From positions 1 through 60,481 of the forward strand of contig JAFXTM010000063.1 in NCBI GenBank assembly GCA_017535865.1: a stretch of 60,481 bases of DNA, given 5' to 3'. A program made the position numbers and the translations under genes. Below are positions 6,677-25,753 of this stretch, one piece after another (the stretch's first letter is position 1; every line of letters starts with the position of its first letter). The stretch is from Oscillospiraceae bacterium. GTDB taxonomy: Bacteria; Bacillota; Clostridia; Oscillospirales; Oscillospiraceae. The notes beneath the pieces are model-generated. The model had not been told where the DNA came from. It did no database searches and worked only from the letters and a program-made list of their open reading frames with translations.

Positions 6677-6698
6677 GTCTCTTTCGAAACAACTCCAC

Positions 6699-6727: not shown

Positions 6728-6755
6728 GAAAGCAAGAAAACGTAGGAGGTCTATT

Positions 6756-7301
6756 ATGAAAAAAGCAAGACGAATCCTGTCCGTTCTGGTGGTTCTGGTC
6801 CTCTGTCTGTGTGCCGCCAGCCCGGCTTTTGCCTCCAGCCCCTCAAAGTACATTGGTTCGCTTTCTTCCACCGCGGCTTATTCAAGCTCCCAGGGCTTTC
6901 TGGACATCATGGACAGCAATAAGATCATTTACACCTATCGCGGTCTCGACGCGGACGAAGACGATTGGGTCGAAATCAAATACACAGGCGATTACTGCGA
7001 TTGTATCGACATAGACGTCTATTTCAGTTCTTCTGAAGACTGCGCCAGCTTTCGGTTCTGGAACGTGATCGACTTCAACAGCGCGGATTACCGTGAGGTC
7101 CTGGTCATCGTCAACAGACTCAACGCGCAGTACAAATGGGTAAAATTCGTCGTCGATACCAATGACTACTCGGTCACAGCGGAACTCGATACTCTGTTCC
7201 CCGTCGGTGATTCCGGCGAGGTCTGTCTGGAATCCCTGAACCAGATCGTGGGGATCTCGGATCTCGGATACCACGAACTGGAGCCGTACATCAAAAAGTG
7301 A
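6756..7301 (+). CDS. Secreted protein, possibly YbjN-like fold
   Basis: 181 residues with a clear signal peptide (MKKARR, a hydrophobic core, cleavage probably near SPAFASS). The mature part is acidic and lacks catalytic motifs. Its pattern of alternating strands with FRFWNVIDFNSADYREVLV and LNAQYKWVKFVVDTNDYSV resembles the YbjN/type III chaperone-like fold, which often binds partner proteins. This is a weak resemblance and I cannot assign a function. AGGAGGT precedes the ATG by five bases, and a strong terminator follows, so it is a single-gene unit between luxS and htrA. Confidence 0.75.
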   Translation: MKKARRILSVLVVLVLCLCAASPAFASSPSKYIGSLSSTAAYSSSQGFLDIMDSNKIIYTYRGLDADEDDWVEIKYTGDYCDCIDIDVYFSSSEDCASFRFWNVIDFNSADYREVLVIVNRLNAQYKWVKFVVDTNDYSVTAELDTLFPVGDSGEVCLESLNQIVGISDLGYHELEPYIKK

Positions 7302-7324
7302 ATCCTCTCCCCTGTCTCCGTCAG

Positions 7325-7357
7325 CATCGGTCCGCATCCGCGGACCGATGTTTTTTT
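7325..7357 (+). terminator. Terminator of the small secreted protein gene
   Basis: An 11-bp stem, CATCGGTCCGC with GCGGACCGATG, a four-base loop and TTTTTTT. Confidence 0.92.
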
Positions 7358-7360
7358 GGC

Positions 7361-7390
7361 AAACAAAGAACCGCACACCGAAATGTGCGG
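7361..7390 (-). terminator. Terminator of htrA
   Basis: On the minus strand, CCGCACA pairs with TGTGCGG and is followed by TTCTTTGTTT. It lies 46 bases beyond the protease stop. Confidence 0.7.
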
Positions 7391-7436
7391 CCCTTCGTTT
7401 TGGGAGAAAAGAGAGGATGATAGGAGTAGAAAAGTG

Positions 7437-8849: not shown

Positions 8850-8974
8850 GATATATGACCTCTTTTTCCGGATTCTCTTCCTTTCGGTGAATGTACTATA
8901 CCGAACAATTATGACCCTGTTATGAACAAAGTCCCAAGTTTTTTTTAACATTCCGAAAGAAGACTATGAACGGA

Positions 8975-9001
8975 CAGCCCCTCCGGAAACCGGAGGGGCT
9001 G
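8975..9001 (-). terminator. Hairpin after the ABC permease gene
   Basis: A 12-bp perfect stem, CAGCCCCTCCGG with CCGGAGGGGCTG, and a three-base loop, four bases beyond the permease stop. The T-run after it on the minus strand is poor. Confidence 0.6.
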
Positions 9002-9004
9002 CTT

Positions 9005-10876
9005 TCAACCGACGCCGTAGTAGTCGACTGGATAGCCGCTGTCTATCGAGACCGGTCGTATCCCGGCGTGTTTCTCGATCCAGTCCAGACAGTGCGCCGA
9101 GTCCGTCGCGATCTCAAGATCCACCCACTGCTGCTGGGAAATGCTGCCGCCGGAGCGCTGATACGCTTCGCGATCCTCTGTCAGGCAGAGGAACAGGTCC
9201 GCGTTCGTATAGCACCAGCCGCGGTCATAATCGCAGATGACGCGGCGGGCGATATGCCCCTCCGCGAGATCCGGAAGGACCCCGTTCTCCCAGAAATCCA
9301 GGAACTCCTCGCCCGACAGGGTATACGAAGGAACGCTGATGTAATAGTTTTGGTTTTGATCCCCGAACACGGGACTGAATTGGATGGACGCGCTGACCAC
9401 ATTCTCAGCCTTGAGCGGATAATCGAACGTGCATCGATACTCCAGTGCTTCCCGGAGGTTCAGGATCGCTTCCAGCTTTCTCAGGTCCGAGTCCGGGTCC
9501 GTGACGTCCTCCCCGTCGGCGCGGACACGATAGAATCGGGTCAGGATCTTTCCGTTTTTCAGGATATAGGTGATCTCCGCATTCCGCGCGAGCTCCATTC
9601 CCCCGTCGTTTACGTACAGGTATTCGTTCCCCTGCCGGGGCTGCGCTTCATGCTTCGCCTGGTTTGCGATCATGCTGCTGTGAAACGCCAGAACGTTTTC
9701 TATGCTGTCCGCCTCTTTCAGTTCCACGCCGTTGATCACGACCTGCTCGACCGTCCCGGCAGACGGGACACGTTTTTCGACGCCGAAGAGATCAAACTCG
9801 CAGGCGGTGAAGAGCAGCACGATCACAAGCGCGCAGATGAGAAAGCCTTTTGCGTTCTTCCGAAAGACGCGGAAGCTCTTCTCGATCAGCATCCGGGCTG
9901 CAAAATAGCCCAGGAAGGCGCCGACAAGAAGCAGCGCGAGCAGGACCAGCGCCGCCCCTCTTCCGCTGAGCCGGAGGTCGGCGATCTCATAAACCAGCGC
10001 CGCGAACACGACCGCGCTCCCAAAACACATGCAGTACTGGAAGACCGGCTTCAGCACGCGGATCGCCACCGTGTCCCCGGCCGTCTCCATCCTCCTGCGG
10101 AGGAACAGACGCCAGGCAAACAGCATGAAAACGATCCCGACAAGCGCGTAGACCGCCGTCGCAGGAATACCGGTGAACTCAACATTCGACGGCCATTCCG
10201 TATAGCAGACGCCGAGGCTGCTCAGCATGTAGACGAGCGGACTGAGGAAGACCAGATGAAACCCGTTTCCCGACAGACCATATACGATCTTGCTCAGAAT
10301 ATCTTTTGCGCAGGCCTCGGCTATGATCGCGGTAAAATTCAAAACAAAATAGACGCAGGGAAGAATCAGCAGGCTGCCGGTCAGCATCGCACAGAAGGCC
10401 GCAAAGCCGTACAGGAAAGTCTTGCTGAAAACCAGCACGGCGAAGAAGACGAGCACCGAGCGAGCTTTCATATAACCGCTCAGGCAGAGCAGCGCCGTGA
10501 CGCCGCAGGCCAGCACATCCGCCGCGAGAAGCGAGAGCGCGCCGGTCAGGAGCGAGGTAAAAAACAGGCTGGTTCTCGTTACAGGCAGGCTGTTCATAAG
10601 GCCGCAGGAGCGGGTGTTGTACAGAAAGCTGAACACGGCCATCGCGCTGAGGATACTGATCAGAAACGAAAGACGCACGATCGGCTGGAAGGTGTTCCCG
10701 AGCGTCAGATCCAGAGCCGGGGACAGATCGGTCCCCGGGTCAAAGCTTTGCAGGCGGCTGTACAGGGCAAGCGGGATCAGCAGGAGGATAAGAAGATACC
10801 CGATCCACAAAGGCCAAAAGCGCCTCAATAGATTCTTCGCGATCCCGGAGTTAAAACAGGATGTCTTTGACTTCAT
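9005..10876 (-). CDS. Large ABC transporter membrane protein (YtrC/D-like)
   Basis: 623 residues with about eight hydrophobic helices in the first 360 residues and another near 335-350, then a long extracytoplasmic C-terminal half from about residue 375 to the end with no membrane segment. The layout resembles ABC-2-type permeases with a sensing domain. The substrate is unknown; YtrA-regulated ABC systems usually respond to cell-wall-active agents. The ATG at 10876 follows GGGAGGTG and lies inside the end of the ATPase gene (26-base overlap), so the two are translationally coupled. Confidence 0.8.
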   Translation of the reverse strand: MKSKTSCFNSGIAKNLLRRFWPLWIGYLLILLLIPLALYSRLQSFDPGTDLSPALDLTLGNTFQPIVRLSFLISILSAMAVFSFLYNTRSCGLMNSLPVTRTSLFFTSLLTGALSLLAADVLACGVTALLCLSGYMKARSVLVFFAVLVFSKTFLYGFAAFCAMLTGSLLILPCVYFVLNFTAIIAEACAKDILSKIVYGLSGNGFHLVFLSPLVYMLSSLGVCYTEWPSNVEFTGIPATAVYALVGIVFMLFAWRLFLRRRMETAGDTVAIRVLKPVFQYCMCFGSAVVFAALVYEIADLRLSGRGAALVLLALLLVGAFLGYFAARMLIEKSFRVFRKNAKGFLICALVIVLLFTACEFDLFGVEKRVPSAGTVEQVVINGVELKEADSIENVLAFHSSMIANQAKHEAQPRQGNEYLYVNDGGMELARNAEITYILKNGKILTRFYRVRADGEDVTDPDSDLRKLEAILNLREALEYRCTFDYPLKAENVVSASIQFSPVFGDQNQNYYISVPSYTLSGEEFLDFWENGVLPDLAEGHIARRVICDYDRGWCYTNADLFLCLTEDREAYQRSGGSISQQQWVDLEIATDSAHCLDWIEKHAGIRPVSIDSGYPVDYYGVG

Positions 10877-13485: not shown

Positions 13486-13514
13486 ATTATAACGCATGCC
13501 CGGACTTCTGACAA
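13486..13514 (-). promoter_or_regulatory. glyA promoter
   Basis: On the minus strand: TTGTCA (13509-13514), 17-base spacer, perfect TATAAT (13486-13491). Confidence 0.82.
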
Positions 13515-13546
13515 GCGCACAGAATTCACGAAGTTTCATACAACAC

Positions 13547-13575
13547 TTGCTACTTTTATTCCTAAATGCTACAAT
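13547..13575 (+). promoter_or_regulatory. Promoter of the anchored endonuclease/phosphatase gene
   Basis: TTGCTA (13547-13552), 17-base spacer, TACAAT (13570-13575). It is back-to-back with the glyA promoter, only 32 bases apart. Confidence 0.65.
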
Positions 13576-13606
13576 ATATACAATCAAAAGACCGGGAGGC
13601 ATCCGA

Positions 13607-14659
13607 ATGAAAAAAATTTTTCGTTTTCTCCTCACGCTGTTGCTCATCGCGGTTATCGTCGTTGGGGCCCTGCTCGGATGGCTGAGCGCGACAGAGTATC
13701 GGCCTGAGCCCGTTGAATCGCTCGCGGTCAGATCCATCTCTTCCGACAGTGTCGTCCTTCCCTCCGAGGGTCTCCGCATACTCAGCTGGAACATCGGATA
13801 TGCCGGGCTTGGCGCGGAATGCGACTTCTTTATGGACGGCGGTACGATGTCCCGGCCGGACAGCGTGGCGACCGTGAACCGCTACCTCGACGGCATCCGG
13901 GAAACCATCTCCGCCGCGGATCCCATGCTGGTCATGCTGCAGGAAGTCGATACCGATTCCGGCCGGACTTACCGGATCGACGAGACGACGTCTCTTTTGA
14001 AGAACAGCGCCGCCTATGCTCTCAATTACTCCTGTCCCTTTGTGCCCGTGCCAGTCCCGCCGATCGGCCGTGTCCACAGCGGGCTCTTTACCACGACCGA
14101 TTACACGATCGACAGCGCGGAGCGCATCTCCCTGCCTTGTCCTTTCTCCTGGCCGCTGCGCATCGCGAACCTCAAGCGCTGCCTGCTGGTGAGCTATCTC
14201 CCTCTGGAGCGCTCCGACAAACAGCTCGTGCTGGTCAATCTGCATCTCGAAGCCTATGACGACGGCGAGGGCAAGATCGCGCAGACGAATCAGCTGTGCG
14301 AATTCATCCAGAGCGAGTATGAAAAAGGCAACTACGTCATCGCGGGCGGGGATTTCAACCAGACCTTTCCCGGCAGTCTTGACGCGTATCCCATCCTGAC
14401 CCCCGATTTCTGGACGCCGGGCGTGCTGGAAGCGGATCTGCTGCCGGAAGGCTGGCAGCTCGCCTACGACACGGCGCTCCCCTCCTGTCGCCTGCTGAAC
14501 CAGCCCTATGATCCCGCCGATGCCGAACACACACAGTACTATGTGATCGACGGCTTCATCCTCTCACCCAACGTGGAACTGACGAGCGTCAAGACGCTCG
14601 ACTGCGGCTTTGCGAACTCCGATCACAACCCGGTCGAGCTGCTGGTCGATCTGAAATAA
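13607..14659 (+). CDS. Membrane-anchored endonuclease/exonuclease/phosphatase-family protein
   Basis: 350 residues. A transmembrane anchor at about 7-26 is followed by a complete EEP domain: ILSWNIGY (metal asparagine), LQEVDTDS (metal glutamate), IAGGDFNQT (Asp/Asn pair) and the terminal NSDHNPVELL with the catalytic histidine. The family includes nucleases, sphingomyelinases and inositol phosphatases; the membrane tether and outside location favour a phospholipid, nucleotide or nucleic acid substrate, which I cannot decide. The ATG at 13607 follows GGGAGG. Single-gene unit with a strong terminator. Confidence 0.87.
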   Translation: MKKIFRFLLTLLLIAVIVVGALLGWLSATEYRPEPVESLAVRSISSDSVVLPSEGLRILSWNIGYAGLGAECDFFMDGGTMSRPDSVATVNRYLDGIRETISAADPMLVMLQEVDTDSGRTYRIDETTSLLKNSAAYALNYSCPFVPVPVPPIGRVHSGLFTTTDYTIDSAERISLPCPFSWPLRIANLKRCLLVSYLPLERSDKQLVLVNLHLEAYDDGEGKIAQTNQLCEFIQSEYEKGNYVIAGGDFNQTFPGSLDAYPILTPDFWTPGVLEADLLPEGWQLAYDTALPSCRLLNQPYDPADAEHTQYYVIDGFILSPNVELTSVKTLDCGFANSDHNPVELLVDLK

Positions 14660-14670
14660 GCCGGATAACA

Positions 14671-14706
14671 GATAAAGCCTGTCACGTTTTCGTGACAGGC
14701 TTTATC
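14671..14706. terminator. Bidirectional terminator with the MacB-core gene stop inside
   Basis: A 16-bp perfect stem, GATAAAGCCTGTCACG with CGTGACAGGCTTTATC, and loop TTTT. It separates convergent genes; the TAA of the minus-strand gene (14702-14704) lies in the right arm. Confidence 0.85.
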
Positions 14707-15787
14707 TTCTTTCATGCCGTCCGTGCCTTTTCTCCCAGGCGCGGCGCTCCCGCACGCGCACGGCTTCACCGATGCGCTCCGACATATCCGGAATGATCTC
14801 GTCCACGAGCGTATCTCTCGCCCGGCGCAGAAGACGCAGCGCATTGCGCATCAGATGAATGAACGGGAACACGGCGAACAGGAAGCCCAGCAGCAAATAG
14901 AGGGCACCGTGGTCCTCCGCGCTACGGCAGGCGTTCTCCCAATAGGGATAGATGATGCCGCGGGTCTGCATCGAGCGCGTACCGAAGGCAAGCAGGATCT
15001 TTGCCAGTCGGGAGAAAGAAAAGCGATCCGTGTTCTGCAGGATCTCTCCGTTTCCGATTGGGAATTTCTGTTTAGCAAGCTGGACGGCGAAGCCCCTGAC
15101 CGGTTCGCCCATGACGAGTTCATAGGAGGTGATCCCCGCCTTATCGTTCAACTGGCTGTATGCCTCATAGGACATGAACAATCCCATGCCGTCCGTGTAG
15201 GCGAGACGGCTGAAGCGGTCCTGCTCCCGCTGGATCACACCGGCCACCACAAACGGGACGCCCTCGATCTTCAGCTCCATTCCGGTCAGCTCGGTTCCGC
15301 CAAAGAGGAGCCAGGCAAGATCCTCGTCGAGCAGGACGCGGTCTTTCATGTAGTCCGACTCCGCGATATAGTTCCCGTTGAGCAGGCGGAGCGGATGGAA
15401 CTGAAAGAAATCGCCGCCCACCGCGATCACGCGCGCTTCACCGCTCCCCAACGCGGTCGAGACGCGCAGCTTGCCGACAGCGCTCCAGGCATCCACCTGA
15501 AGCTGACCGCTGTACTCTACGTCGACAGACGCGGCATGCAGCGCTTTCTGGACTTCTTCCCGGAAAGCATAGATCTTGTCAGGCTGCAGCGCCTCATCGA
15601 CCGGGAGAAAGCAGGAAACCTGGCTGAAGCGCAGGTCGCTCTCCCCCTGCCAGCGCTGCGCCGCCTGCTGGGAACTCAAGGGCAGGCCGATCCGATATGC
15701 CAGCAGGAAAAAGGTGATCGACAGCAGCGCCAGAAAGCCCGCCAGGAGCCATAAGGCCCGCCTTCTTTTTCTTTTTCTCTTTCTCAT
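14702..15787 (-). CDS. MacB-type periplasmic-core membrane protein without FtsX helices
   Basis: 361 residues. A very basic start (RKRKRKRRR), a transmembrane helix at about 11-31, an extracytoplasmic domain of about 255 residues, a second helix at about 292-312 (LYLLLGFLFAVFPF), and a basic helical cytoplasmic tail. The extracytoplasmic part follows the MacB core pattern: VIAVGGDFFQFHPLRLLNGN, DRVLLDEDLAWLLFGG, GVPFVVAGVIQ. In MacB or FtsX proteins three helices follow this core; here there is one. It starts at the base after the HlyD-like gene stop, so the two are surely co-translated. It probably works as a partner for that adaptor. Its own transport ability is doubtful. Confidence 0.72.
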   Translation of the reverse strand: MRKRKRKRRRALWLLAGFLALLSITFFLLAYRIGLPLSSQQAAQRWQGESDLRFSQVSCFLPVDEALQPDKIYAFREEVQKALHAASVDVEYSGQLQVDAWSAVGKLRVSTALGSGEARVIAVGGDFFQFHPLRLLNGNYIAESDYMKDRVLLDEDLAWLLFGGTELTGMELKIEGVPFVVAGVIQREQDRFSRLAYTDGMGLFMSYEAYSQLNDKAGITSYELVMGEPVRGFAVQLAKQKFPIGNGEILQNTDRFSFSRLAKILLAFGTRSMQTRGIIYPYWENACRSAEDHGALYLLLGFLFAVFPFIHLMRNALRLLRRARDTLVDEIIPDMSERIGEAVRVRERRAWEKRHGRHERR

Positions 15788-17827
15788 TTACCCGTTGTCC
15801 GCCAGCCGGACCATATCGCCGTTTTTGACAGGCGCGTTGCTGGTCGTGATCACATAATCGCCATAGCTGAGGTCGGCCGTCACGGCGGAATTCAGATCGT
15901 CCTCCGCCAGGACCTTGACCTCAACGCGGCGGGCGATGTAGCGGTTTCCGAGCGGTGAGTTCTTCGACTCGATCGCCAGAACGAAGCTGCCGTTGGTATC
16001 GCTGCGGATCGCGCTGTTCGGCACGACGACGTCGTAGTTGGCGCTCTTCTGGCCGACGGAGATCGTGATCTCCGCCCCCGGCGTCACATCTCCCTGTACA
16101 TCAAAGGTCAGGAGCTTTTGGGTCTGCGGGTTCTTGGGATCCGCCTTGATGGACTCGAGCGTCGCGACAACCTGGTTGCCCCAGTAGTAGTTGGAGACAG
16201 TGGCGGAGTCGCCCGGTTTCAGACGGCGCGCCTGCTCGTTGGTGACGGAAAAGCTCATGGTATAGCCGAGGTCCGGGACCTGGATCGTGCAGAGCAGATC
16301 CCCTTTGAGCTTGGTATCGCCGGGCACACAGTCGACCGTCTCGATCATGCCGCTCGTTTTCGCCAGGATCTGGTTCTCCTCGCCCCCGGAGAGCTCCGTG
16401 ACTTTCTTCCGCGCGGCTTCGATCTGCGCGTTGAGATCGGCCATCTCCAGATAGGCCATCGCCTGTGTGCGGCCGTCCGACGCTTTCTTCTCATCCAGCG
16501 CCTCTTTCAAGGAGTAGTAAGTCTCCCGCGCGGTGTCATAAGCCTCTTTCGCTTTCGTGTACTCTTCAGAATCCGGTTCGGAGGCGATGATCCTGTCGAT
16601 CTCCTGCTGCAGCCCGTCGTATTTTTCCTGCAGCTCATTCACAGCGTCCTGCGCGTCATCGAGATTTTTTCTTGGAATGCTCTCCAGACTTTTCTGGGCC
16701 GCATCCACGGCTTTCTGTTTCAGCTGAAACTCCCGCATGAGCGCGAGGTCTTCCGGCTTGGGCTCATAGGGCGTCGGGGCCGGATCCTGCGGCGGCTCGG
16801 TGACGGTCGGCGGCTCGGTGACGGTCGGCTGCTCCGACGTCGGAGTCGACGATCCTCCCCCGCCGCTCTCCGTTTCGCCGTCCGGATCCGTGACCGATCC
16901 GACGGGATCCGTGGTCGATGCTGTCGTATCCGCAGACTGATCCGTTGACGCATCGGAGGCCCCGGGCGCTTCGTTTGATTCGTTTCCACCGGTGAACAGC
17001 GAAAGCGTGCTCACTTCATAGCGATACACAGTATAAATTCTTGCCTTCATCCCCTGTGCCGCCGCCGTCTGATCCTGTATCAGGTCTCCGGAATCGTCGA
17101 GGTACACGGTTTTGCCGTTGGAATCGATAAACATCCATTGATCGTTCGTTTTGGAAACAAAACTGATCCCGTTCAATGAAAGCGCCCGCTGTGCATCATC
17201 GCGTTCCTGCGCTTTCTGTGTCAAAACATCCTTGGCCTCCGCGACAAGCTGATCGTAGGCTTCCTTCTCGGCGTCCCGGATTTTCTCAGCCTCTTCAATC
17301 TGCTTGGCGGTTTCCTCCTGTTTTTTCAGAAGCTCAGGCACGGTACTGTCGGAGCCGGCGCCGGCTATGGCGTCAAGCTTTGCCTTGGCCGCTTTATAGG
17401 CCTCCTTAGCCGCTTTGATGCGGCGCTCATCCCCGGCATAGCTCGGATAGCTGACACCGACTGCGGTGCGCTGGTAGCTGAGTTCAAGCTGGCGGAGCTG
17501 CTCCTGCGCGGCCTCCAGCTCGCTCGCCTCGCCCTGGCCGAGCACAAACAGCACATCGCCGACCTTGACCTCCTGGCCGACCTTGACCATGACCGCACGG
17601 ATCTCGCGCGTCTGTTCCGCCTTGACGCTCGTCACGCCGACGGAGCTGACCGTACCGGTCCCGCGTACCTTGGCGGTGATCGTGCCGTTGGTAACGTACT
17701 GCGTGGCGACCTCCGGCAGGCTGCGGTTCATCCATGTATTGGAGAAAAAGGTCAGCACAAGAAGCACGGAGAGAAAAATAATCGCCGCGTTCTTGACCCA
17801 ATCTCTTTTTCTGTGTGTGAACTCCAT
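15788..17827 (-). CDS. HlyD/MacA-like adaptor with two coiled coils and a Pro/Thr linker
   Basis: 679 residues, much longer than usual adaptors (about 350-450). Order: anchor helix at 13-29; first half of the lipoyl/barrel domain (about 48-100, with VKVGQEVKVGDVLFVLGQGE); coiled coil (about 102-220); a small inserted globular part (about 222-275, with DQWMFIDSNGKTVYL); a disordered Ser/Thr/Pro/Gly linker (about 280-360); second coiled coil (about 365-490); then the second half of the lipoyl domain (LAKTSGMIETVDCVPGD), beta-barrel and membrane-proximal domains. Adaptors of this type link inner-membrane transporters to outer partners; in a Gram-positive cell it would reach into the wall. It begins six bases after the permease stop and belongs to the sugar-permease operon. 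Confidence 0.85.
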   Translation of the reverse strand: MEFTHRKRDWVKNAAIIFLSVLLVLTFFSNTWMNRSLPEVATQYVTNGTITAKVRGTGTVSSVGVTSVKAEQTREIRAVMVKVGQEVKVGDVLFVLGQGEASELEAAQEQLRQLELSYQRTAVGVSYPSYAGDERRIKAAKEAYKAAKAKLDAIAGAGSDSTVPELLKKQEETAKQIEEAEKIRDAEKEAYDQLVAEAKDVLTQKAQERDDAQRALSLNGISFVSKTNDQWMFIDSNGKTVYLDDSGDLIQDQTAAAQGMKARIYTVYRYEVSTLSLFTGGNESNEAPGASDASTDQSADTTASTTDPVGSVTDPDGETESGGGGSSTPTSEQPTVTEPPTVTEPPQDPAPTPYEPKPEDLALMREFQLKQKAVDAAQKSLESIPRKNLDDAQDAVNELQEKYDGLQQEIDRIIASEPDSEEYTKAKEAYDTARETYYSLKEALDEKKASDGRTQAMAYLEMADLNAQIEAARKKVTELSGGEENQILAKTSGMIETVDCVPGDTKLKGDLLCTIQVPDLGYTMSFSVTNEQARRLKPGDSATVSNYYWGNQVVATLESIKADPKNPQTQKLLTFDVQGDVTPGAEITISVGQKSANYDVVVPNSAIRSDTNGSFVLAIESKNSPLGNRYIARRVEVKVLAEDDLNSAVTADLSYGDYVITTSNAPVKNGDMVRLADNG

Positions 17828-17833
17828 AGAGCT

Positions 17834-18709
17834 TTATCCTTTCACACTTCCGGAATTTGCGATGCCCTCCACCAGGTATTCCTCGCCATGCAGGAACAGC
17901 AGCAGGGACGGGACCATATAGATCGTGGCCATGGCAAAGGCCAAACCTATCTCGCCTGCGTTGACCTGCGAGAGGAAGACCGACAGGGGCTGCTGGTCTG
18001 CATCCTGCAGCAGAATCAGAGGCTGTTCCACCATGTTCCAGTAATCGATGAACACGAGGATCGCGATGGAATAGATCGCCGAACGACACTGCGGCAGACA
18101 GATCCTGGTGAAGATCTGCCACTCTCCCGCACCGTCGACCTTGGCCGATTCGATCAGCGAATACGGAATACGGCGCATGAACTTCGTCAAAAGGAAGACC
18201 GAAAACGGAGCGAAAACGCCCGGCAGGATGATCGACCAGCGGGTATTGATAATACCCAGCCAATCGCTGACCAGATAATTCGGGACCAGCGTGACCTGAT
18301 AGGGCATGAGCATCAGGATCACGTAGAAAAAGAAGATGCCGCTGCGCAGCTTGCCGCGCCAGCGCGTGAAGCTGTACGCCGCCACGCAGGCCACCAGAAC
18401 CTGAAACAGCACGATGGGGACGACCAGGATCAGGCTGTTCCAGAATTTCAGCAGATACTCCGGGGACTTGATCAGACCCGTCACGTACTGCGAGAGCGTG
18501 ACCTTGTCCGGAATGAATTTCAGATTGACCGTTTTGGACACATAGCCGCCCGTCGTAGTCGAAAAGATCATGCCGTAGTTGGATTTGATCTCCGCCTCGG
18601 ACATGAAAGAGTTGGTGATAGTCAGGACGGTCGGCAGAAGAAACATCACCGCAAACGCCGCGCACACAAGGAACATCACCCCGCGGCTGAAATAGCGCTT
18701 TTTCTTCAT
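17834..18709 (-). CDS. Carbohydrate-type ABC permease, MalG-like
   Basis: 291 residues, six predicted membrane helices, and the cytoplasmic EAA loop ESAKVDGAGEWQIFTRICLPQ that docks onto an ATPase. This is the second permease of a CUT1-type importer. The start at 18709 overlaps the MalF-like stop by four bases. The usual partner ATPase is not encoded nearby, so a shared MsmK-type ATPase elsewhere must be assumed. Confidence 0.93.
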   Translation of the reverse strand: MKKKRYFSRGVMFLVCAAFAVMFLLPTVLTITNSFMSEAEIKSNYGMIFSTTTGGYVSKTVNLKFIPDKVTLSQYVTGLIKSPEYLLKFWNSLILVVPIVLFQVLVACVAAYSFTRWRGKLRSGIFFFYVILMLMPYQVTLVPNYLVSDWLGIINTRWSIILPGVFAPFSVFLLTKFMRRIPYSLIESAKVDGAGEWQIFTRICLPQCRSAIYSIAILVFIDYWNMVEQPLILLQDADQQPLSVFLSQVNAGEIGLAFAMATIYMVPSLLLFLHGEEYLVEGIANSGSVKG

Positions 18710-19593
18710 CCCTCCACATCCTTTCCGAACCAGTCCTCCACACGGAAAAGAAGCGCGATCAGCACCACCATAACGACGGCCATGACCACAGCCGCGGCGG
18801 AGAGCTTCTGATAGTCGAGGGATTTAAAGGTGTTGTTCATGAAATGCTGCAGCATGTACAGCTTCTCATAGGGATAGTTACCGGTCAGCAGATAAACTTC
18901 ACGGAAGACCTTGAACGAATTGATGAGCGAGAGGATCGTCACGAACAAAAGCGTCGGTGAGAGGTAGCGCAGCTTGATGGCAAAGAACTTGTACCATTCG
19001 CTCGCGCCCTCCACGTCCGCCACCTCGAGCAGTTCCCGCGGAATATTGGCAAGGCCGGCCATAAACAGGATCATGTTATAGCCCAGGTTTTTCCACAGGA
19101 AGAGCAGGGTCACGACGATCTGGCTGTAATCAGATTGAAGCCAGTCGATACGTTTCCAGCCGAAAACCTGCATAAACTCGTTGATCGTGCCGTTGAAATT
19201 GAAAAGCACCTGCCAGATCAGTACGACGGAAGCCACCGGAACCATCATCGGGCTCAGAAAGAATGTACGAAACTGGGATTTCAGCGGAATACGTGCCTCC
19301 AGCATCAGCGCAAGCACGATGGACAGGGTCACGGCGAGCGGCACCGCGAGCGCGGAAAAGCTCAGCGTGTTTCGTGCCGCAAGCAGAAAAGCCGAGTTTT
19401 GGAACAGCTTGCGGAAGTTCTCCAGCGCGACATAATTATGTGTGCTTACGCCGTCGATCAGCGAGTAATAGACCACGACGCCGAAAGGGATGATAAAAAA
19501 TACACCCACACCAAGCAGGCTCGGGGAAAGAAAACAGAGGCTCCTCGCGAAGTCGCGGCAATGCTCCCGACGCCGTATCGCGTTTTTCTTCAT
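18706..19593 (-). CDS. Carbohydrate-type ABC permease, MalF-like
   Basis: 295 residues, about six helices, with the EAA loop LEVADVEGASEWYKFFAIKL near residue 200. First gene of the permease-adaptor-MacB-core operon. I start at the ATG at 19593 (MKKNAIRRREHC); an in-frame ATG at 19605 would add four residues, and neither has a strong ribosome binding site. Transcription starts from a near-consensus promoter just upstream, which lies inside a long inverted repeat. Confidence 0.92.
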   Translation of the reverse strand: MKKNAIRRREHCRDFARSLCFLSPSLLGVGVFFIIPFGVVVYYSLIDGVSTHNYVALENFRKLFQNSAFLLAARNTLSFSALAVPLAVTLSIVLALMLEARIPLKSQFRTFFLSPMMVPVASVVLIWQVLFNFNGTINEFMQVFGWKRIDWLQSDYSQIVVTLLFLWKNLGYNMILFMAGLANIPRELLEVADVEGASEWYKFFAIKLRYLSPTLLFVTILSLINSFKVFREVYLLTGNYPYEKLYMLQHFMNNTFKSLDYQKLSAAAVVMAVVMVVLIALLFRVEDWFGKDVEG

Positions 19594-19611
19594 TTTTATT
19601 TCCATTTCGAA

Positions 19612-19665
19612 AAGTATTGTATGTTCAAACATATTGATTATACAATACTTCAGGTATGCTTTCAA
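19612..19665 (-). promoter_or_regulatory. Permease-operon promoter inside a palindromic operator
   Basis: On the minus strand: TTGAAA (19660-19665), 17-base spacer, perfect TATAAT (19637-19642). Two 10-base arms, AAGTATTGTA (19612-19621) and TACAATACTT (19641-19650), form a perfect inverted repeat around the -10 box. A second palindrome, TATGTT-CA-AACATA (19620-19633), covers the likely transcription start. Confidence 0.8.
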
Positions 19666-19716
19666 GGCTGAGCGGAATATTTAAGAATCACAAGAAACGC
19701 CCTCAGCCCACGTATA

Positions 19717-19744
19717 GGAAAGGGCCGCCTCGGCGAGGCGGCCC
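19717..19744 (-). terminator. Terminator of the solute-binding lipoprotein gene
   Basis: A 10-bp stem, GGGCCGCCTC with GAGGCGGCCC, and loop GGC, followed on the minus strand by TTTCC. It separates the lipoprotein gene from the permease operon, which has its own promoter. Confidence 0.75.
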
Positions 19745-19755
19745 GAAATCCTTTC

Positions 19756-22167
19756 TCAGCGCTGCTCGTTAACGAAAATATTGATCTTGCTCTGGGTCAG
19801 ACGAGCAACCTCCTCGGCGCTCTTCTGGCCGGCGAAGAAAGCCTGCGCCTCTTCGATCGCGATCTGGATCAGGCTGTCGTTGTTGTTCATGACGCGGGTA
19901 GTCGTGTCAATGACCTCGAGCAGCTTGTCGGCCTGCTCCTGCGTCATGGCATAGAACTCGATCACGCTGCCGTCCGCCATGCCGATCCCGCCGCGGCTTA
20001 TCTGCTTCTTGTTTCCGTCTTCATCCAGCAGGATGTTCCCATCCGCGTCTTTCTCATACTGAGGCTCCATGATCTCCTTCAGCTTGACATCGAACGCGTG
20101 TCTGTTGATGGGAAGTCCCCAGATATTCTTCTGATAGCTCTCGCTGAGCACCGTGCGGAGGAAGGCCCAGGCGGCCTCCTTGTCGGAGCACTTGGCGCTC
20201 ATGGCAAAGCCGGAGGTAATGGCCATCATATTGCCCACTCCGCTGGAGGTCGGGTAACCGATATAGGTGGCGTCGCCGCCGAAATAGAGATCGTTGTAGA
20301 GCAGATCCTCAAGGCTGTAGATATTCGCAGCCATCAGCATCTGACGGCCGTCGGCAATGCGCTTTTCCGTGCTCTCGTCCTCGGTCCACTCATAGTTTTC
20401 CCAGTCGAACTCGGCCTGGAAGCGATTTGCGAAGTTCAGGATACTGATGTATTCCGCACTGTCAAAATTGCATTTGCCGGTGTTCCAGTCCACAAGATTG
20501 TCCAGCTCCATGGTGAGCAGGCGCTGCAGCATATCGTCGCGCGTGGTGTACTGGTCCAGCGGCGTGCAGCCCGATGGCATCGAGGCGAGCGCAGCGTTGA
20601 ACTCATCATAGGTCCAGCCCGGCTTGTCGCCGACGACGGAGCTGGCGCCGAGCAGCGTCAGGATCTGGAAGGAAGGCGCGACCTGATAGAGGCCTCCGTT
20701 GACCTCAAGGGCCTTGAGCACGTTCGGGAAAAAGTCCTCACGGTTGAGGTCTTTATCGGCGTCCAGGTAGGGGTACAGATTCTCCAGGAGTCCTTTCGAG
20801 GCAAGCTGCGTATAGGGAAGCTCATTCATGGAGAGCAGGTCCGGGACATTGCCGGCAAGGATCTCGGTCGTGAGCTTCGTGAGACCGGCGGAGTAATCCT
20901 CATCCGTGTTGTATTCGGAATAATCCTGGACCACGATGCGGGTCGTTTCACTGCTGCGGTTGAACTCGATGATCTTCTGCTGGACCTCATATTCCAGATT
21001 CATCACCGCCAGCGTCAGTGTCTGCTTGACCGGGAGAGAGGATTCGGGAACGAGCGTCAGTTTCACGATCTCGTTGTCCGGATTATCCGTGCTGAATTCC
21101 GAGCTCATGGCGAGGATGCTGCCGTCTTCACTGATACGGATCCCGTTGAGGGAATTGCCGTTGACATCGACGTTGATCCAGTTGAGCAGCTTGGTCCCGG
21201 TCTCCTCTCCCAGCTTGAAACCGTAGAGATTCATACCGTCCTGGAAGCAGAGGTCATACTCCCCGCCGCCGGACATAAAGCTGTAAGCGTTGCGCGGGAC
21301 CTTGATCGCCGCGCCCAGGCTCTTTTTTTCCAGGTCGACCGGGTGCAGCTCCATACCGAGATTGCCCCAGGTCGAAACCACAATAGTCCCGTCTTTCAGA
21401 GTAAAAAGTCCGTCAAAATAATCGTCGCTCTCGATCGTAAAGAACAGACTGCCGTCTGTCGAGAAGCAAAGGATCTTCTGTTCGCTGGTGCAAAGGAAGT
21501 TCCCCTTGTCGTCCAGCTGCGCGTTGTAGAGCTCGAAGTAGCTGTCGCCTACGTCGTAATCCAGTTCCGCGGAGCTCAGTTCCTTTCCGTCCTTGTCCAG
21601 CGTACGGATGTAATAGTGCTGCTCATATTTCATATACTCCCACTGGTTGTCGCCGTAGCGTTCACTTTCCGGTCCATCGTACCAGTTGATGTAAACGGTC
21701 TCGATCGTCGTCAGCGAACCATCTTCGTTCACGAACATTCTCGCCAGACTGGAGTTGCCGAAATAATCCATACGGTCTTCGGTGTCTTCGGGAACGGCGA
21801 TGCCTTCATAGGCATCCAGCTTTTTGGCGTTTCCGTCCAGGTCGATATAATACAGTGCGGCGCCGTAAATATCGTATTCACCCTCGTAATGGACAACGGC
21901 GTCTTTCGGGATAGGCCGCTCACCGGTCTTTTCCCAGCTTTGTGCGTAAATGCCATTCTCGGTATAGGCAAGCGGGCTGATGCCGTTTTCGATCTTTGTC
22001 TTGACCGGAATAAAATCCGCCTTATAGACCATGCGCTCCGCCGCGGCCTCAGTCGGAGCGGGAGCCTCGTTCTTTTCCGTACTGCTCTTGCTGCCGCAGG
22101 CTGCCAGGCTCAGGACCATCGCCAAAACCAGGCACAGGCAGAGAAGCGCTTTCACGGTATGTTTCAT
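19756..22167 (-). CDS. Giant extracellular solute-binding lipoprotein
   Basis: 803 residues, about twice a normal family 1 binding protein. A signal peptide ends in SLAACGSK, so Cys24 is lipidated. Residues about 45-370 look like beta-propeller blades, with repeated patterns such as DGSLTTIETV, DKDGKELSSAEL, DDKGNFLCTSEQKI and SEDGSILAMSSEF. Residues about 375-800 are a family 1 solute-binding domain (KIIEFNRSSETTRIVV, DLLSMNELPY, GCTPLDQYTTRDDMLQ, SAKCSDKEAAWAFLRTVLSE). It should deliver a ligand, probably a sugar or glycopeptide, to the downstream MalFG permeases. AAGGAGGC precedes the ATG. It is divergent from the two-component system that probably controls it. Confidence 0.88.
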   Translation of the reverse strand: MKHTVKALLCLCLVLAMVLSLAACGSKSSTEKNEAPAPTEAAAERMVYKADFIPVKTKIENGISPLAYTENGIYAQSWEKTGERPIPKDAVVHYEGEYDIYGAALYYIDLDGNAKKLDAYEGIAVPEDTEDRMDYFGNSSLARMFVNEDGSLTTIETVYINWYDGPESERYGDNQWEYMKYEQHYYIRTLDKDGKELSSAELDYDVGDSYFELYNAQLDDKGNFLCTSEQKILCFSTDGSLFFTIESDDYFDGLFTLKDGTIVVSTWGNLGMELHPVDLEKKSLGAAIKVPRNAYSFMSGGGEYDLCFQDGMNLYGFKLGEETGTKLLNWINVDVNGNSLNGIRISEDGSILAMSSEFSTDNPDNEIVKLTLVPESSLPVKQTLTLAVMNLEYEVQQKIIEFNRSSETTRIVVQDYSEYNTDEDYSAGLTKLTTEILAGNVPDLLSMNELPYTQLASKGLLENLYPYLDADKDLNREDFFPNVLKALEVNGGLYQVAPSFQILTLLGASSVVGDKPGWTYDEFNAALASMPSGCTPLDQYTTRDDMLQRLLTMELDNLVDWNTGKCNFDSAEYISILNFANRFQAEFDWENYEWTEDESTEKRIADGRQMLMAANIYSLEDLLYNDLYFGGDATYIGYPTSSGVGNMMAITSGFAMSAKCSDKEAAWAFLRTVLSESYQKNIWGLPINRHAFDVKLKEIMEPQYEKDADGNILLDEDGNKKQISRGGIGMADGSVIEFYAMTQEQADKLLEVIDTTTRVMNNNDSLIQIAIEEAQAFFAGQKSAEEVARLTQSKINIFVNEQR

Positions 22168-22203
22168 ATATTGCCTCCTTATGCTTGTTTTCTTGCGGGT
22201 CTG

Positions 22204-22279
22204 ATTATAGCATAGCTTCTCCTGAATAGTTCTTAAACTTTCTTAAAATGTTTCTTCAAGCGGAAATATGTGGTATACT
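22204..22279. promoter_or_regulatory. Divergent control region with tandem response-regulator boxes
   Basis: It holds a minus-strand TATAAT (22204-22209) for the lipoprotein gene and a plus-strand TATACT (22274-22279) for the regulator gene, both with poor -35 boxes. Between them are three tandem copies: TTCTTAAA (22230-22237), TTCTTAAA (22240-22247) and TTCTTCAA (22252-22259). Tandem direct repeats next to a weak -35 are typical of OmpR/PhoB activator sites. Confidence 0.6.
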
Positions 22280-22311
22280 GCATCCATATTCAACGAAATG
22301 GGAGGTTTGAC

Positions 22312-23001
22312 ATGTCTACTCTTTCCCGTATTCTGATCGTTGATGACGATCCCGACATCCGCAAGGTCCTGAGCCTTCTTTTAAAAGACAGCTACATCGT
22401 GGCCGAGGCCGGGGACGGACCCGAGGCGATCGCATACATCGGCAGCAATCCGGATACAGATCTGATCGTGCTGGACGTCATGATGCCCGGCATGTCGGGG
22501 ATCGATGCCTGTGCGGAGATCCGGAAACTCTCGAACGCCCCCATCCTGTTTCTGACGGCAAAGTCCGCCGAACAGGACCGTGTCAGTGCGTACCAGAGCG
22601 GCGGAGACGACTTTCTCTCCAAACCCTTCTCGCAGGCCGAGCTTCTCGCGAAGATCCGCTCCCTCCTGCGCCGTTACCATGAATATCGCGGCAAGCAGGC
22701 AAGCGTGCTTACGATCGGTAACCTCGAACTCGACTTTGCCAATCACGCCGTAAAAAGCAACGGCGAGCCTGTCGTGCTGACGGATACCGAGTACAACATT
22801 CTGGAGTATCTGGTCAAAAACCGCGGGACAATCGTGACCGCCGCACAGCTCTATGAGGCGGTCTGGGGGGAGAAATTTCTCGCCGGTTCCGGCAATACCG
22901 TTATGGTCCATGTGCTGAATGTACGCCGGAAGATCGAGGAGAATCCGTCCAATCCCAAGATCCTCCGCACCGTCTGGGGAAGAGGGTATCAGATTGATTA
23001 A
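22312..23001 (+). CDS. OmpR/PhoB-family response regulator
   Basis: 229 residues. The receiver domain (1-115) has the acid pocket Asp11/Asp12 and phospho-acceptor Asp55 in LIVLDVMMPG, and Lys at FLSKPFS. The C-terminal winged helix (about 130-229) has VVLTDTEYNILEYLVKNRG and TVMVHVLNVRRKIEENP. The ATG at 22312 follows GGGAGG; an upstream in-frame ATG is discarded. The sensor kinase gene overlaps its end by eight bases. It probably activates the divergent lipoprotein gene. Confidence 0.95.
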   Translation: MSTLSRILIVDDDPDIRKVLSLLLKDSYIVAEAGDGPEAIAYIGSNPDTDLIVLDVMMPGMSGIDACAEIRKLSNAPILFLTAKSAEQDRVSAYQSGGDDFLSKPFSQAELLAKIRSLLRRYHEYRGKQASVLTIGNLELDFANHAVKSNGEPVVLTDTEYNILEYLVKNRGTIVTAAQLYEAVWGEKFLAGSGNTVMVHVLNVRRKIEENPSNPKILRTVWGRGYQID

Positions 23002-24313
23002 GAAGTTTCTCCATCCGCCGCGCTCACTGGATGGGAAAATGCTCTATATGGTCCTTCTCTCTCTGCTCTTCGCCGGGCTGGTCTATTTCTCCGCATACCG
23101 CCTCGCGAGCTGGGCCCTGCAGGAAATCTATATGAGCCCGGAATCCCGCGCCGCGAGGCAGGCGGAGATCTACTCCGATTTTTATCTGTATGTGACGAGC
23201 AATCAGATCAAGGGGGACAATACCGAGGCAGTCGCCCGCTGGACAACCGAGCACCCCTATGTGACGATCCTGGTCTACCAGGATGAGACGACAGCCATGC
23301 GTCCTGCGCCGGGTACCTTTCCTGCCGGACAGCAGAGTCAGCCTCTTCAGTACTCCAGTATATACGGCAGGCTCTATCCGATGCGCTTTGCCGACGGTGT
23401 TTACCGCGTCGCGATCGGGGACAGCAGCAACGTGCGGGAGGACAACATTAACCGCATCCTATCCGTTCTCCTTGCCAGCATTGCCTTCATCAGCATCATG
23501 TTCTGGTATATCCGGCGACTGACGAACCGGATCATCCGTCTCTCACGTGAGGCCGATGCGATCGGGGCCGGGGATCTGGAAGCCCCGATCACGGTCAAGG
23601 GCGAGGACGAGCTGGCGACGCTGGCGGTCGAGATGGATTCCATGCGCCGTTCCGTTATTGAGCGGATGTCGGGCGAACGCCGCGCCTGGGAGGCCAACTC
23701 CGAGCTTATCACTGCCATCTCCCACGACATCCGCACGCCCATGACCGCGCTGATCGGTTACCTCGGTCTGCTGAACGGGAACGGCGTCCCAGACGCCGAC
23801 AGGAACCGCGCCTTCATCTCCTCCGCCTATGACAAGGCCATGGAGCTGAAGGACCTCACTGACGAGCTGTTCAAATACTTTCTCGTCTTCGGACGGGCAG
23901 AGCTGGATCTCCATTATGAGGACCTTGACGCGCGATTTCTGCTGGAACAGCTGTTGGGCGAGGCGGAGTTTGATCTGCGCGACGCAGGCTTTGAAGTCGA
24001 ACGAAGGGAGTTTGAGGGCGATTGCAGCCTGCGCACCGACCCTCTCTATCTCAAGCGCGTCGTGGACAACCTTGTCTCGAATGCAAAAAAATACGCCGAT
24101 CGCGCAGCTCCGATTCGTCTGTCCTCAGTGTTAGAGGGAAAACGCCTGACTGTACGGCTGGAAAACCGCATCGCCGAAAAACGTCCGCAGGTCGAGAGCA
24201 CCAAGATCGGTCTTCGGACCTGCGATAAAATTCTCTCCTCTCTTGGCGGCGAGTTTCATACGGAAGCGGACGGCAGCCGTTTCGCAGCCTTTTTCACTCT
24301 GCCGACCGATTAA
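22994..24313 (+). CDS. Sensor histidine kinase
   Basis: 439 residues. Two transmembrane helices (about 17-40 and 155-173) enclose an extracellular sensor loop of about 110 residues. A HAMP segment (about 175-225) leads to the dimerisation helix with phospho-acceptor His244 in ITAISHDIRTPM, then the ATPase domain with N-box LVSNAKKYAD. The usual DxGxG box is replaced by VRLENRIAEKRP, but STKIGLRTCDKIL supplies a second glycine box. The start is a TTG at 22994 inside the regulator gene, preceded by GAAGAGGG; no ATG fits. It pairs with the upstream regulator. Confidence 0.9.
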   Translation: MIKKFLHPPRSLDGKMLYMVLLSLLFAGLVYFSAYRLASWALQEIYMSPESRAARQAEIYSDFYLYVTSNQIKGDNTEAVARWTTEHPYVTILVYQDETTAMRPAPGTFPAGQQSQPLQYSSIYGRLYPMRFADGVYRVAIGDSSNVREDNINRILSVLLASIAFISIMFWYIRRLTNRIIRLSREADAIGAGDLEAPITVKGEDELATLAVEMDSMRRSVIERMSGERRAWEANSELITAISHDIRTPMTALIGYLGLLNGNGVPDADRNRAFISSAYDKAMELKDLTDELFKYFLVFGRAELDLHYEDLDARFLLEQLLGEAEFDLRDAGFEVERREFEGDCSLRTDPLYLKRVVDNLVSNAKKYADRAAPIRLSSVLEGKRLTVRLENRIAEKRPQVESTKIGLRTCDKILSSLGGEFHTEADGSRFAAFFTLPTD

Positions 24314-24362: not shown

Positions 24363-24821
24363 TCACCAATTGTCCTCTCCGCCGTCGTACCCGCCGTCAC
24401 CGCAGCCACAGCCGCAGCCTCCGCCGCAGGAGCAGCCGCCGTCCTCGCTCTCTCCGCCGCAACAGCCGCCCCCGCAGGAGCAGCCGCCCCCGTACTCGTT
24501 CCCAGGCGCGACGGGAAGCTGTCCGGTGACGAGCAGGTCGGAAGCGGTATCGGCGTCGCCGGAATACCCCACGACCGGTACGATCCCATAGGCAAGCAGC
24601 GCCGTTTTAGCCTCCGGGCCCATATTCCCGACGATCACAGCGGCTACCCCCAAGTCTCTCATAAGGTCCGCCATCGCCTGATGGCCCTGACGCTCCCCCG
24701 TTTCGACCAGTGTTTTCTTACAGTCGGTGACGTATTCGCCGTACTCATAGACGGCAAATACACCGCAATGTCCAAAGTGGCCGAAAATCTCACCGTTATC
24801 GTAAGCTACCGCAACTTTCAT
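24363..24821 (-). CDS. NifX/NifB-type dinitrogenase cofactor-family protein with Cys/Gly tail
   Basis: 152 residues. About 1-105 is the small domain of the dinitrogenase iron-molybdenum cofactor family (MKVAVAYDNGEIFGHFGHC, then AVIVGNMGPEAKTALLAYGI). Residues about 108-152 are almost only Gly, Cys and acidic residues with nine cysteines in Cys-Ser-Cys and Cys-Gly-Cys steps, ending in DNW. In known relatives such proteins bind iron-sulfur clusters or heterometal clusters. Its start overlaps the Mrp gene stop by four bases, which links it to cluster handling. There is no nitrogenase gene in the window. The tail may be a metal-binding or flexible docking segment. Confidence 0.85.
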   Translation of the reverse strand: MKVAVAYDNGEIFGHFGHCGVFAVYEYGEYVTDCKKTLVETGERQGHQAMADLMRDLGVAAVIVGNMGPEAKTALLAYGIVPVVGYSGDADTASDLLVTGQLPVAPGNEYGGGCSCGGGCCGGESEDGGCSCGGGCGCGCGDGGYDGGEDNW

Positions 24822-25651
24822 TCCTTCTGTCCCTTTTCAATATAATCGGCCAGACCGGCGAGCTGGTCGCCGGGTACGGATTCCACCTCGCCCGCGTCCA
24901 CCATGGCGGCGACGACCGGGTCGATAGGCAGGCGCGTGAAGTGCTCGATGCCGAATTCCTTTCCGACGGCCTCCACCCTGCTCTCTCCGAAAACGGCGTG
25001 TTCTTTTCCGCAGTCGGGGCATTTGAAGTAGGACATATTCTCCACAAGGCCCAAGACCGGAACGTTCATCATTTCGGCCATTCGGACAGCCTTGGCCACG
25101 ATCATTCCGACAAGATCCTGCGGCGTCGTCACGATCACGACGCCATCGATGGGCAAAGACTGGAAGACCGTCAAAGGCACATCGCCCGTTCCGGGAGGCA
25201 GGTCAACAAACATATAATCCACGTCCTGCCACAGCACGTCGCTCCAGAACTGGGTAACCGCGCCGGCGATCACCGGTCCGCGCCAAACGACAGGCTCTGT
25301 CTCATTCTCCAGAATAAGGTTGATGGACATCACCTGTATTCCGCTGTGCGTGGTAACGGGGAGCAGGAATTCATCCGTACCCATCGCTTTGGCGGTGATG
25401 CCGAAGGATTTGGGGATGGAGGGGCCGGTAATATCCGCATCGAGAACGGCGCAGCGGTGTCCGCGGCGCTGCATCTCAGAGGCGAGAAGGCTGGTCACAA
25501 GAGATTTGCCGACGCCGCCCTTGCCGCTGACGACGCCGATCACTTTATCTACGCGGGAATAAGGATTGAGCTCCTTCAAAAAGCTCTGCGGTTCCGTACG
25601 CTCGCCGCAGTTCTGCGAGCAGCTGGAACAGTCATGGGTGCATTCGCTCAT
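24818..25651 (-). CDS. Mrp/NBP35-type iron-sulfur cluster carrier ATPase
   Basis: 277 residues. An N-terminal cluster motif has Cys4, Cys8, Cys11 and Cys15 (ECTHDCSSCSQNC). The deviant P-loop VSGKGGVGKS ends at residue 50, with switch motifs DADITGPS and VDLPPGTGD, and a later CxxC in YFKCPDCG. These proteins bind and hand over [4Fe-4S] clusters using ATP. The ATG at 25651 is preceded by AAAGGAA and yields the N-terminal cysteine set directly. It is followed by the NifX-like gene with overlapping ATGA, so the two probably form a cluster transfer pair. Confidence 0.93.
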   Translation of the reverse strand: MSECTHDCSSCSQNCGERTEPQSFLKELNPYSRVDKVIGVVSGKGGVGKSLVTSLLASEMQRRGHRCAVLDADITGPSIPKSFGITAKAMGTDEFLLPVTTHSGIQVMSINLILENETEPVVWRGPVIAGAVTQFWSDVLWQDVDYMFVDLPPGTGDVPLTVFQSLPIDGVVIVTTPQDLVGMIVAKAVRMAEMMNVPVLGLVENMSYFKCPDCGKEHAVFGESRVEAVGKEFGIEHFTRLPIDPVVAAMVDAGEVESVPGDQLAGLADYIEKGQKE

Positions 25652-25753
25652 GTCAATAGTTCCTTTCCTTTGCTGTAATAGCTTTTTCACACCGGATTCC
25701 ATTATACCGCTTTTGATCAAATAGTCAACTCATGCACCGCAGCTCACTGCAGG

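Follow-up and report, generated by a model that had tools for sequence, protein, structure and literature searches.

We examined a 60,481-nucleotide stretch of DNA (hereafter the window) from an Oscillospiraceae bacterium (GenBank assembly GCA_017535865.1, contig JAFXTM010000063.1, positions 1 to 60,481 of the forward strand), in which a locus at 14702-24313 combines genes for MalF- and MalG-type permeases of the CUT1 kind, an HlyD/MacA-type adaptor and a protein built on the core of MacB, next to genes for a giant binding lipoprotein and a two-component system. Comparison with related genomes supports the first four as one conserved system. Checking the open reading frames of 14702-24313, together with Pfam, bore out the gene positions and names given by an earlier sequence-only reading, and the tight packing it had described is there: MalF and MalG overlap by 4 bases, 6 bases separate MalG from the adaptor gene, and the adaptor and MacB-core genes abut with a gap of 0 bases. 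The genes are as follows.

14702..15787, minus strand: MacB-core protein, 361 amino acids (MacB_PCD; MacB and YknZ structure profiles; alignment)
15788..17827, minus strand: HlyD/MacA-type adaptor, 679 amino acids, with TFFSxT in its N-terminal transmembrane (TM) helix (Pfam, NCBIfam, profiles)
17834..18709, minus strand: MalG-type CUT1 permease, EAA loop present (Pfam, NCBIfam, motif, tree)
18706..19593, minus strand: MalF-type CUT1 permease, EAA loop present, start at 19593 or 19605 (Pfam, motif)
19756..22167, minus strand: giant binding lipoprotein, 803 amino acids, lipobox Cys24, C-terminal half of solute-binding protein family 1
22313..23001, plus strand: OmpR-family response regulator; GTG 22270 listed as start, ATG 22313 likelier (Pfam, NCBIfam)
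22919..24313, plus strand: HAMP histidine kinase, real start probably downstream of 22919 (Pfam, NCBIfam)

The Pfam matches of the window proteins are MacB_PCD (2.4e-8) for the MacB core, HlyD_3 (1.6e-7) for the adaptor, BPD_transp_1 (1.1e-15 and 1e-17) for the permeases, SBP_bac_8 (3.4e-13, residues 424-683 of 803) for the lipoprotein, Response_reg and Trans_reg_C for the response regulator, and HAMP and HisKA for the histidine kinase. NCBIfam families agree for the other genes of the locus and gave no match for the MacB core.

Conservation of the four-gene core

The sequence-only reading had suggested looking for the gene order MalF-MalG-HlyD-MacB in relatives, and had held that finding these genes apart, or finding an ATP-binding cassette (ABC) ATPase and a full FtsX permease beside the adaptor, would point to a local fusion. 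Searched against the genomes of the taxonomic order, the window MacB core found matches in 50 of 394; we label the loci and genomes compared with the window Lnnn and Gnnn. All 34 places besides the window that passed the strong cut-off (E <= 4.1e-9) were retrieved with their flanks. The four-gene order is intact in 28 of them, and the remaining six (L051, L058, L065, L067, L069, L070) are truncated by a contig end ahead of the next gene. Among seven named contigs (L001-L007), five hold the set (L001-L004, L007) and two are cut (L005, L006).

At wider ranks, a MacB profile (A1) was run against 391 genomes at class level and 398 at phylum level. The class search found 22 places besides the window at 79 bits or more, of which 21 were retrieved (all but that of G632), and the phylum search gave two new places above 370 bits, both retrieved; the same partners are present in all 23, spread over two contigs in G533. 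Starting from the adaptor (profile A3, 1e-30), 19 of 245 genomes matched, many of the genomes being common to the MacB searches, and all 19 hold MalG and MacB partners, with one MalF cut at a contig edge. Sixteen of these loci were already known from the MacB searches and three were newly retrieved.

For further comparison we used 66 loci chosen for holding MalG, HlyD and MacB, a set that cannot reveal loci that lost a part because membership demanded these three genes. Nor are its loci wholly independent, since L063 and L064 share one genome and L108 and L126 another. The order MalF-MalG-HlyD-MacB is found in 55/55 loci with a two-TM (short) form of the MacB protein and in 9/11 with a full-length (long) form; one of the two exceptions is without MalF at a contig edge, and the other reads HlyD-MacB-MalF-MalG, as does L171, which is not among the 66. 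The four-gene order occurs in several families and orders and in a second class of the phylum. The genes of the core are therefore not found apart in relatives, and we rejected a fusion of two unrelated operons for the core because its order is conserved. A chance joining local to the window's genome has practically negligible probability: the separability of the lipoprotein and two-component part is the one thing in its favour, nothing speaks for it in the core, and for the core the identical order across families, orders and a second class refutes it.

Weaker matches were also sampled. Of 18 order-level places weaker than 4.1e-9, six were retrieved and all are ordinary MacAB loci; at class and phylum level 22 weak places, a minority of the total, were retrieved. 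Together these 28 comprise nine hybrid loci with full-length MacB and 19 ordinary ones. In a plasmid search with MalG (2656 records), all identities were below 60%.

Three observations concern individual neighbourhoods. L063 and L064, on contig 29 of their genome, show no difference over 7214 bases, lie about 67 kb apart and are oppositely oriented, a duplication that may be an artefact of assembly or represent an inverted repeat. The MacB core of L051, at the end of its contig, has within a few kb (G390 contig 46, locus positions 5029-10000) an ABC ATPase, a response regulator and a large protein with eight TM helices, which look unrelated to the system. An Mrp-like gene at window 24818-25720 has counterparts near L060, L062 and L066 (one other family; 58-60% identity), which may reflect shared synteny or chance.

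MacB core, adaptor and permeases

The window MacB-core protein consists of TM1, an extracytoplasmic domain like that of MacB and YknZ, and TM2, and in alignment with ordinary MacB it is without TM3 and TM4; by eye and by hydropathy we found two TM helices, not the four of the MacB type. The MacB-core profile matches the MacB and YknZ structures (TM counts here are hydropathy counts, and fold assignments come from sequence profiles). Of the MacB partners in the 66 loci, 55 are short and 11 long. The short form has two TM segments in 51 of 55, one in L053 and L101, and three in L002 and L094 (the L002 reading frame, as called here, is overlong at 768 amino acids), and the long form has five to six hydrophobic segments.

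From the alignment with ordinary MacB we derived a coupling motif, REIGxxKAxG, which sits after TM2; the accessible part of PMC5985334 places the major coupling helix of MacB after TM2. The motif is present in 19/19 ordinary MacB proteins from the same retrieved sets and in none of the 66 system loci, eight more contig-cut ones, L171 or the window protein, both forms thus being without it. No non-MalK ABC ATPase shorter than 300 amino acids lies within 1.5 kb in any of the 66 loci, and an own MacB/LolD-type ATPase, fused or adjacent, is absent there and at the window locus; L007 has a non-MalK ABC ATPase at 2.0 kb, accompanied by its own membrane gene. Ordinary MacB loci have an ABC ATPase near MacB in 16/19. 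Given the missing motif and the lack of a nearby MacB-type ATPase, it is unlikely that the MacB homologue of this system works as a normal ATP-driven type VII permease. The full-length MacB of distant relatives was ruled out as a working FtsX permease by its missing motif (L171 included), and the ATPases found in the operons are MalK-type, so that the second arrangement named by the sequence-only reading as a sign of fusion was not found either.

HlyD/MacA-kind adaptors are known from export. Those of the system have, as far as sequence features go, an N-terminal TM helix, a split lipoyl domain with a hairpin between its halves, and an HlyD_3 region, and they differ from ordinary adaptors (15 proteins above 30 bits and below 700 amino acids) in two respects. 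First, TFFSxT or a near form of it occurs in the N-terminal TM helix of 61/67 system adaptors and 0/15 ordinary ones. Second, as regards the short form, the lipoyl halves are separated by about 390 residues in the window and by a median of 350 in the short form (172-500, n=56 including the window), against 131 in the long form (95-273, n=11) and 132 in ordinary adaptors (74-303, n=15). If helical, the short-form insert would be a much longer hairpin; part of the window insert is Thr/Pro-rich and non-helical by eye. The accessible text of PMC5985334 calls such adaptors somewhat unanticipated in Gram-positive bacteria, which have no outer membrane, matches the height of SpMacA to the Gram-positive periplasm-like zone and reports that YknX binds peptidoglycan. 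Since SpMacA fits this zone and YknX binds peptidoglycan, a longer adaptor could reach into the wall.

The adaptor gene followed by a protein with a MacB extracytoplasmic domain is what this locus shares with MacAB and YknWXYZ (type VII ABC systems with an adaptor), and the MacA/MacB type of the two proteins is what would favour a MacAB/YknXYZ-like machine for export or self-protection that has borrowed MalFG. We regard such a machine as very unlikely. Unlike MacAB and YknWXYZ, the system has MalFG and shows no adjacent MacB-type ATPase and no coupling motif, its two-TM form is without TM3 and TM4, and in that form the adaptor hairpin region is much longer; solute-binding lipoprotein genes also lie near 40/55 two-TM and 11/11 full-length loci.

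The permeases have kept their means of meeting an ATPase. EAA loops are the docking sites of MalK-type ATPases, and they are present in both window permeases and conserved across loci (MalG: E 66, D 66, G 67 and P 66 of 67 rows; MalF: E 64 and A 61 of 66 rows). By a motif test, a MalK-type ATPase lies within the operon in 16/66 loci (10/55 short-form and 6/11 long-form), and the six operon ATPases scanned all have ABC_tran, OB_MalK and TOBE_2. Elsewhere in the window's genome there are four OB_MalK matches, none of them at the window locus. One lies unlinked on contig C93, truncated where the contig stops, and shares 63-72% identity with seven operon ATPases; another, on contig C72, adjoins a different MalFG pair. 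The sequence-only reading had described the locus as lacking an ATPase, which is true of the locus itself and not of the genome, where MalK-type ATPases are encoded elsewhere. A stand-alone shared ATPase is reported in the accessible text of PMC9601137 for transporter B of C. thermocellum. The missing ATPase is in itself ordinary, and we rejected it as a sign of a non-ABC machine, MalK-type ATPases being found in operons and, unlinked, in the window's genome; the unusual parts are the repurposed MacB core and the long adaptor.

In a MalG tree that uses no MacB data, all 35 sampled short-form rows (the window and 34 of the 55 loci) fall in one clade with 100/100 support, 12 long-form rows lie outside it without a resolved order among themselves, and five generic CUT1 MalG sit past a 99/98 branch. 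The rooting of this tree, and hence the short form as the derived one, is unsure because long outgroup branches may join falsely (a warning of the program); whatever the rooting, the MalG sequences indicate that MalG and MacB have been inherited together. Judged by its sequences, the core is a real and widespread system that resembles a CUT1 importer in its ATP-coupling features, and its MacB core lacks those of a MacB transporter.

Lipoprotein and two-component system

The lipobox cysteine is near-invariant in 26 aligned lipoproteins. The best match of the C-terminal half is CbpC of C. thermocellum, its closest solved relative (1.3e-37 with a profile, 2.4e-10 with the window protein alone). 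The N-terminal half gave weak profile matches to 7eq5 (1.5e-9), a kinase with a propeller domain, and to SconeE (9.5e-9) and Bagel8 (6e-6), which we take to be designed propellers; no lone stretch passes the limit. This half is likely a beta-propeller.

The lipoprotein and its two-component system proved separable from the core, as a second module. In L001-L003, the three closest relatives, no lipoprotein gene stands beside the core, and the gene is found elsewhere in the same genomes, so the sequence-only picture of lipoprotein, two-component system and core as one fixed locus does not hold. The orthologous two-component system adjoins the lipoprotein gene in two of these relatives (L166, L178) and lies about 6 kb from it in the third (L186); the response regulator is 65-79% identical in 3/3 and the histidine kinase 49-56% in two, the third contig ending in the response regulator. 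Orthologues at 49-79% identity were found only in these three relatives, and remoter relatives of the two proteins occur near a minority of loci. We therefore rejected the idea that the two-component system always belongs to the core, which in the three closest relatives lies elsewhere.

Lipoprotein profile matches number 23 in L001's genome, 5 in L003's, 1 in L002's and 2 in the window's. In L001's genome (G1150), the 23 matches amount to 20 lipoprotein paralogue genes by count, beside a single core locus, further cores not having been searched for. In L176 (G446 contig 33, 39000-58000), whose genome carries full-length MacB, several more lipoprotein-family genes and fragments are clustered. 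The many paralogues of L001's genome fit nutrient uptake of many ligands, and with MalFG and a binding protein in CUT1-type families they would suit an ordinary CUT1 oligosaccharide importer whose adaptor and MacB core merely anchor or stabilise it at the wall, with no new mechanism. CUT1 importers (MalFGK and a binding protein of family 1, the ATPase being stand-alone and shared in some) likewise have two BPD_transp_1 permeases with EAA loops, a binding lipoprotein and a MalK that is operon-borne in some cases or unlinked. The system departs from them in two ways: all unbroken strong loci here also encode an HlyD-type adaptor and a MacB core, and its binding protein, which has an additional N-terminal half, is roughly double the usual size. 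Presence in 28/28 unbroken strong loci of the order, with their own conserved signatures, is more than dispensable parts would lead one to expect, and we hold such an anchored importer to be unlikely.

The signals around the two modules in the window are these.

14670..14707, no strand assigned: perfect 17-pair hairpin, likely terminator, where the core operon and the convergent gene 13496-14659 meet
19612..19650, minus strand: perfect 11-base inverted repeat, arms 19650-19640 and 19622-19612, 17-base spacer (arms checked)
19612..19665, minus strand: core-operon promoter-like site, TTGAAA 19665-19660 and TATAAT 19642-19637 (consensus match)
19722..19744, minus strand: terminator-like hairpin 3' of the lipoprotein gene (consensus match only)
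22230..22246, plus strand: direct repeat TTCTTAA-N3-TTCTTAA in the gap between lipoprotein and response-regulator genes, candidate response-regulator box

The hairpin at 14670-14707 overlaps the final bases of the MacB-core gene. With the hairpin 19744-19722 and the promoter-like site 19665-19637 lying between lipoprotein and MalF genes, the core probably has its own promoter (TTGAAA-17-TATAAT, 11/12 consensus bases, a consensus match only), and the lipoprotein gene is probably transcribed separately. The listed MalF start, TTG 19665, is probably the -35 box, the real start being 19605 or 19593. The inverted repeat at 19612-19650 overlaps the -10 box of this site and is a possible operator. 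On the other strand, the response regulator probably starts at ATG 22313, preceded by GGGAGG; the listed histidine kinase start, 22919, falls 83 bases within the response-regulator gene, so the real one is probably later.

The direct repeat in the window is the only perfect copy in the available sequence of its genome. L001's genome has perfect copies at four places: in the lipoprotein/response-regulator gap, before MalF of the unlinked core, 61 bases before another lipoprotein gene, and at L190 (G1150 contig 2, 52060), with no system gene within 500 bases. At 0-1 mismatch, the limit used for repeat counts (a two-mismatch scan of the window's genome was too noisy, with 21 matches and 10 in the reversed control), L001's genome has 14 matches, spread over 12 places (2 in the reversed control), five of them within 500 bases upstream of a core or lipoprotein gene and seven not. 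Several results speak against a link between the modules: one of four sites in L003's genome lies before the response regulator and none before the core; in L002's genome both sites lie off the lipoprotein contig and, judging by contig number, off the core contig, these two carrying only two-mismatch copies; and before MalF in the window there are loose half-sites but no copy, even when 3 mismatches are allowed. In one relative, then, the promoter repeat is common to both modules, which suggests that this two-component system may control them.

These data bear on a trans-envelope sensor, in which lipoprotein, MalFG, adaptor and MacB core would sense a state arising from the wall or from a ligand and relay it to the histidine kinase, importing little or nothing on balance. 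It is favoured by the orthologous response regulator, which in all three closest relatives keeps its place next to or near the lipoprotein despite the core being elsewhere, by the histidine kinase, present in two (the third contig stops in the response regulator), by the repeat common to the lipoprotein/response-regulator gap and the core in L001's genome, and by the blocked pocket and lack of sugar binding reported for CbpC (accessible text of PMC9601137). Set against these are the restriction of close two-component orthologues (49-79%) to three relatives, with remoter ones near a minority of loci, and the EAA loops and MalK linkage, which favour ATP-driven movement. We consider such a sensor unlikely.

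A possible uptake machine

The sequence-only reading had left open an importer with an adaptor or a sensor. The importer with an adaptor stands, as far as the conserved core and the MalK-type operon ATPases indicate; the fixed link to the lipoprotein and two-component part does not. We lean towards a MalK-driven CUT1-type importer built with an HlyD/MacA-type adaptor and a MacB-derived protein unable to couple to an ATPase, its MalK being shared or operon-borne. Several findings weigh against this importer. The adaptor of L171, a full-length locus, is without the TFFSxT signature. No lipoprotein gene was detected within 6 kb of the adaptor in 15/55 two-TM loci, of which L007, L044, L054, L061 and L071 are contig-cut, and L001-L003 and seven of one genus are not. 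Since 50/66 loci have no MalK in the operon, we can only infer the pairing with MalK in the window. According to the accessible text of PMC9601137, CbpC bound none of the carbohydrates tested, its pocket being blocked, and growth of a transporter C mutant on glucose, cellobiose and Avicel was normal, results that fit a non-importing role equally; a table in the accessible part of PMC11212667 credits an earlier study with sugar binding by CbpC.

In such an importer, the large lipoproteins would catch ligand outside the cell. The adaptor, probably a hexamer by analogy with MacA and YknX, would stand on a MacB-core dimer around or beside MalFG in a physical complex, bridging the periplasm-like zone and the wall, and ATP hydrolysis by MalK would power import through MalFG alone. 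The two-component system beside the lipoprotein might set the level of the system. In a bolder version, possible rather than probable, MalK would power an importer whose substrate route passes through a tube of six adaptors resting on a degenerate MacB dimer without an ATPase. A single core would then serve numerous large lipoprotein receptors across the wall zone of Gram-positive cells, and transport would be coupled to signalling to the two-component system.

The literature compared comprised accessible parts of PMC9601137, PMC11212667, PMC8303734, PMC3492117 and PMC5985334. Transporter C (the CbpC operon of C. thermocellum, Cthe_2125-2128 / clo1313_2783-6), as described there, resembles this system in its related binding protein and its four-gene operon with two membrane domains, and differs in that CbpC (438 residues in its entry) has no N-terminal half. 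BceAB/BceRS-type modules, which join a MacB-type permease to a two-component system, are also among the closest known systems. They too (BceABS is named in the accessible part of PMC5985334) set an ABC system beside a two-component system in Bacillota, whereas the window locus has no BceB-type permease or ATPase. We found no published interpretation of the importer-adaptor-MacB combination in a literature search that covered few subscription journals, in keeping with the earlier statement that no such system had been described. That statement is qualified by an acrA gene named, uninterpreted, in a figure legend on C. thermocellum sugar ABC clusters (PMC9601137, seen in part), a legend from which neither its cluster nor any MacB homologue can be read.

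The gene set suggests an undescribed envelope-spanning uptake or sensing machine of gut Clostridia and their relatives. If so, HlyD/MacA-type adaptors would gain a role in uptake or sensing, and a MacB protein would persist without its ATPase. The 55 two-TM loci alongside 11 full-length ones make this step testable, and the system would offer a handle on how gut and rumen Clostridia move large ligands across the wall.

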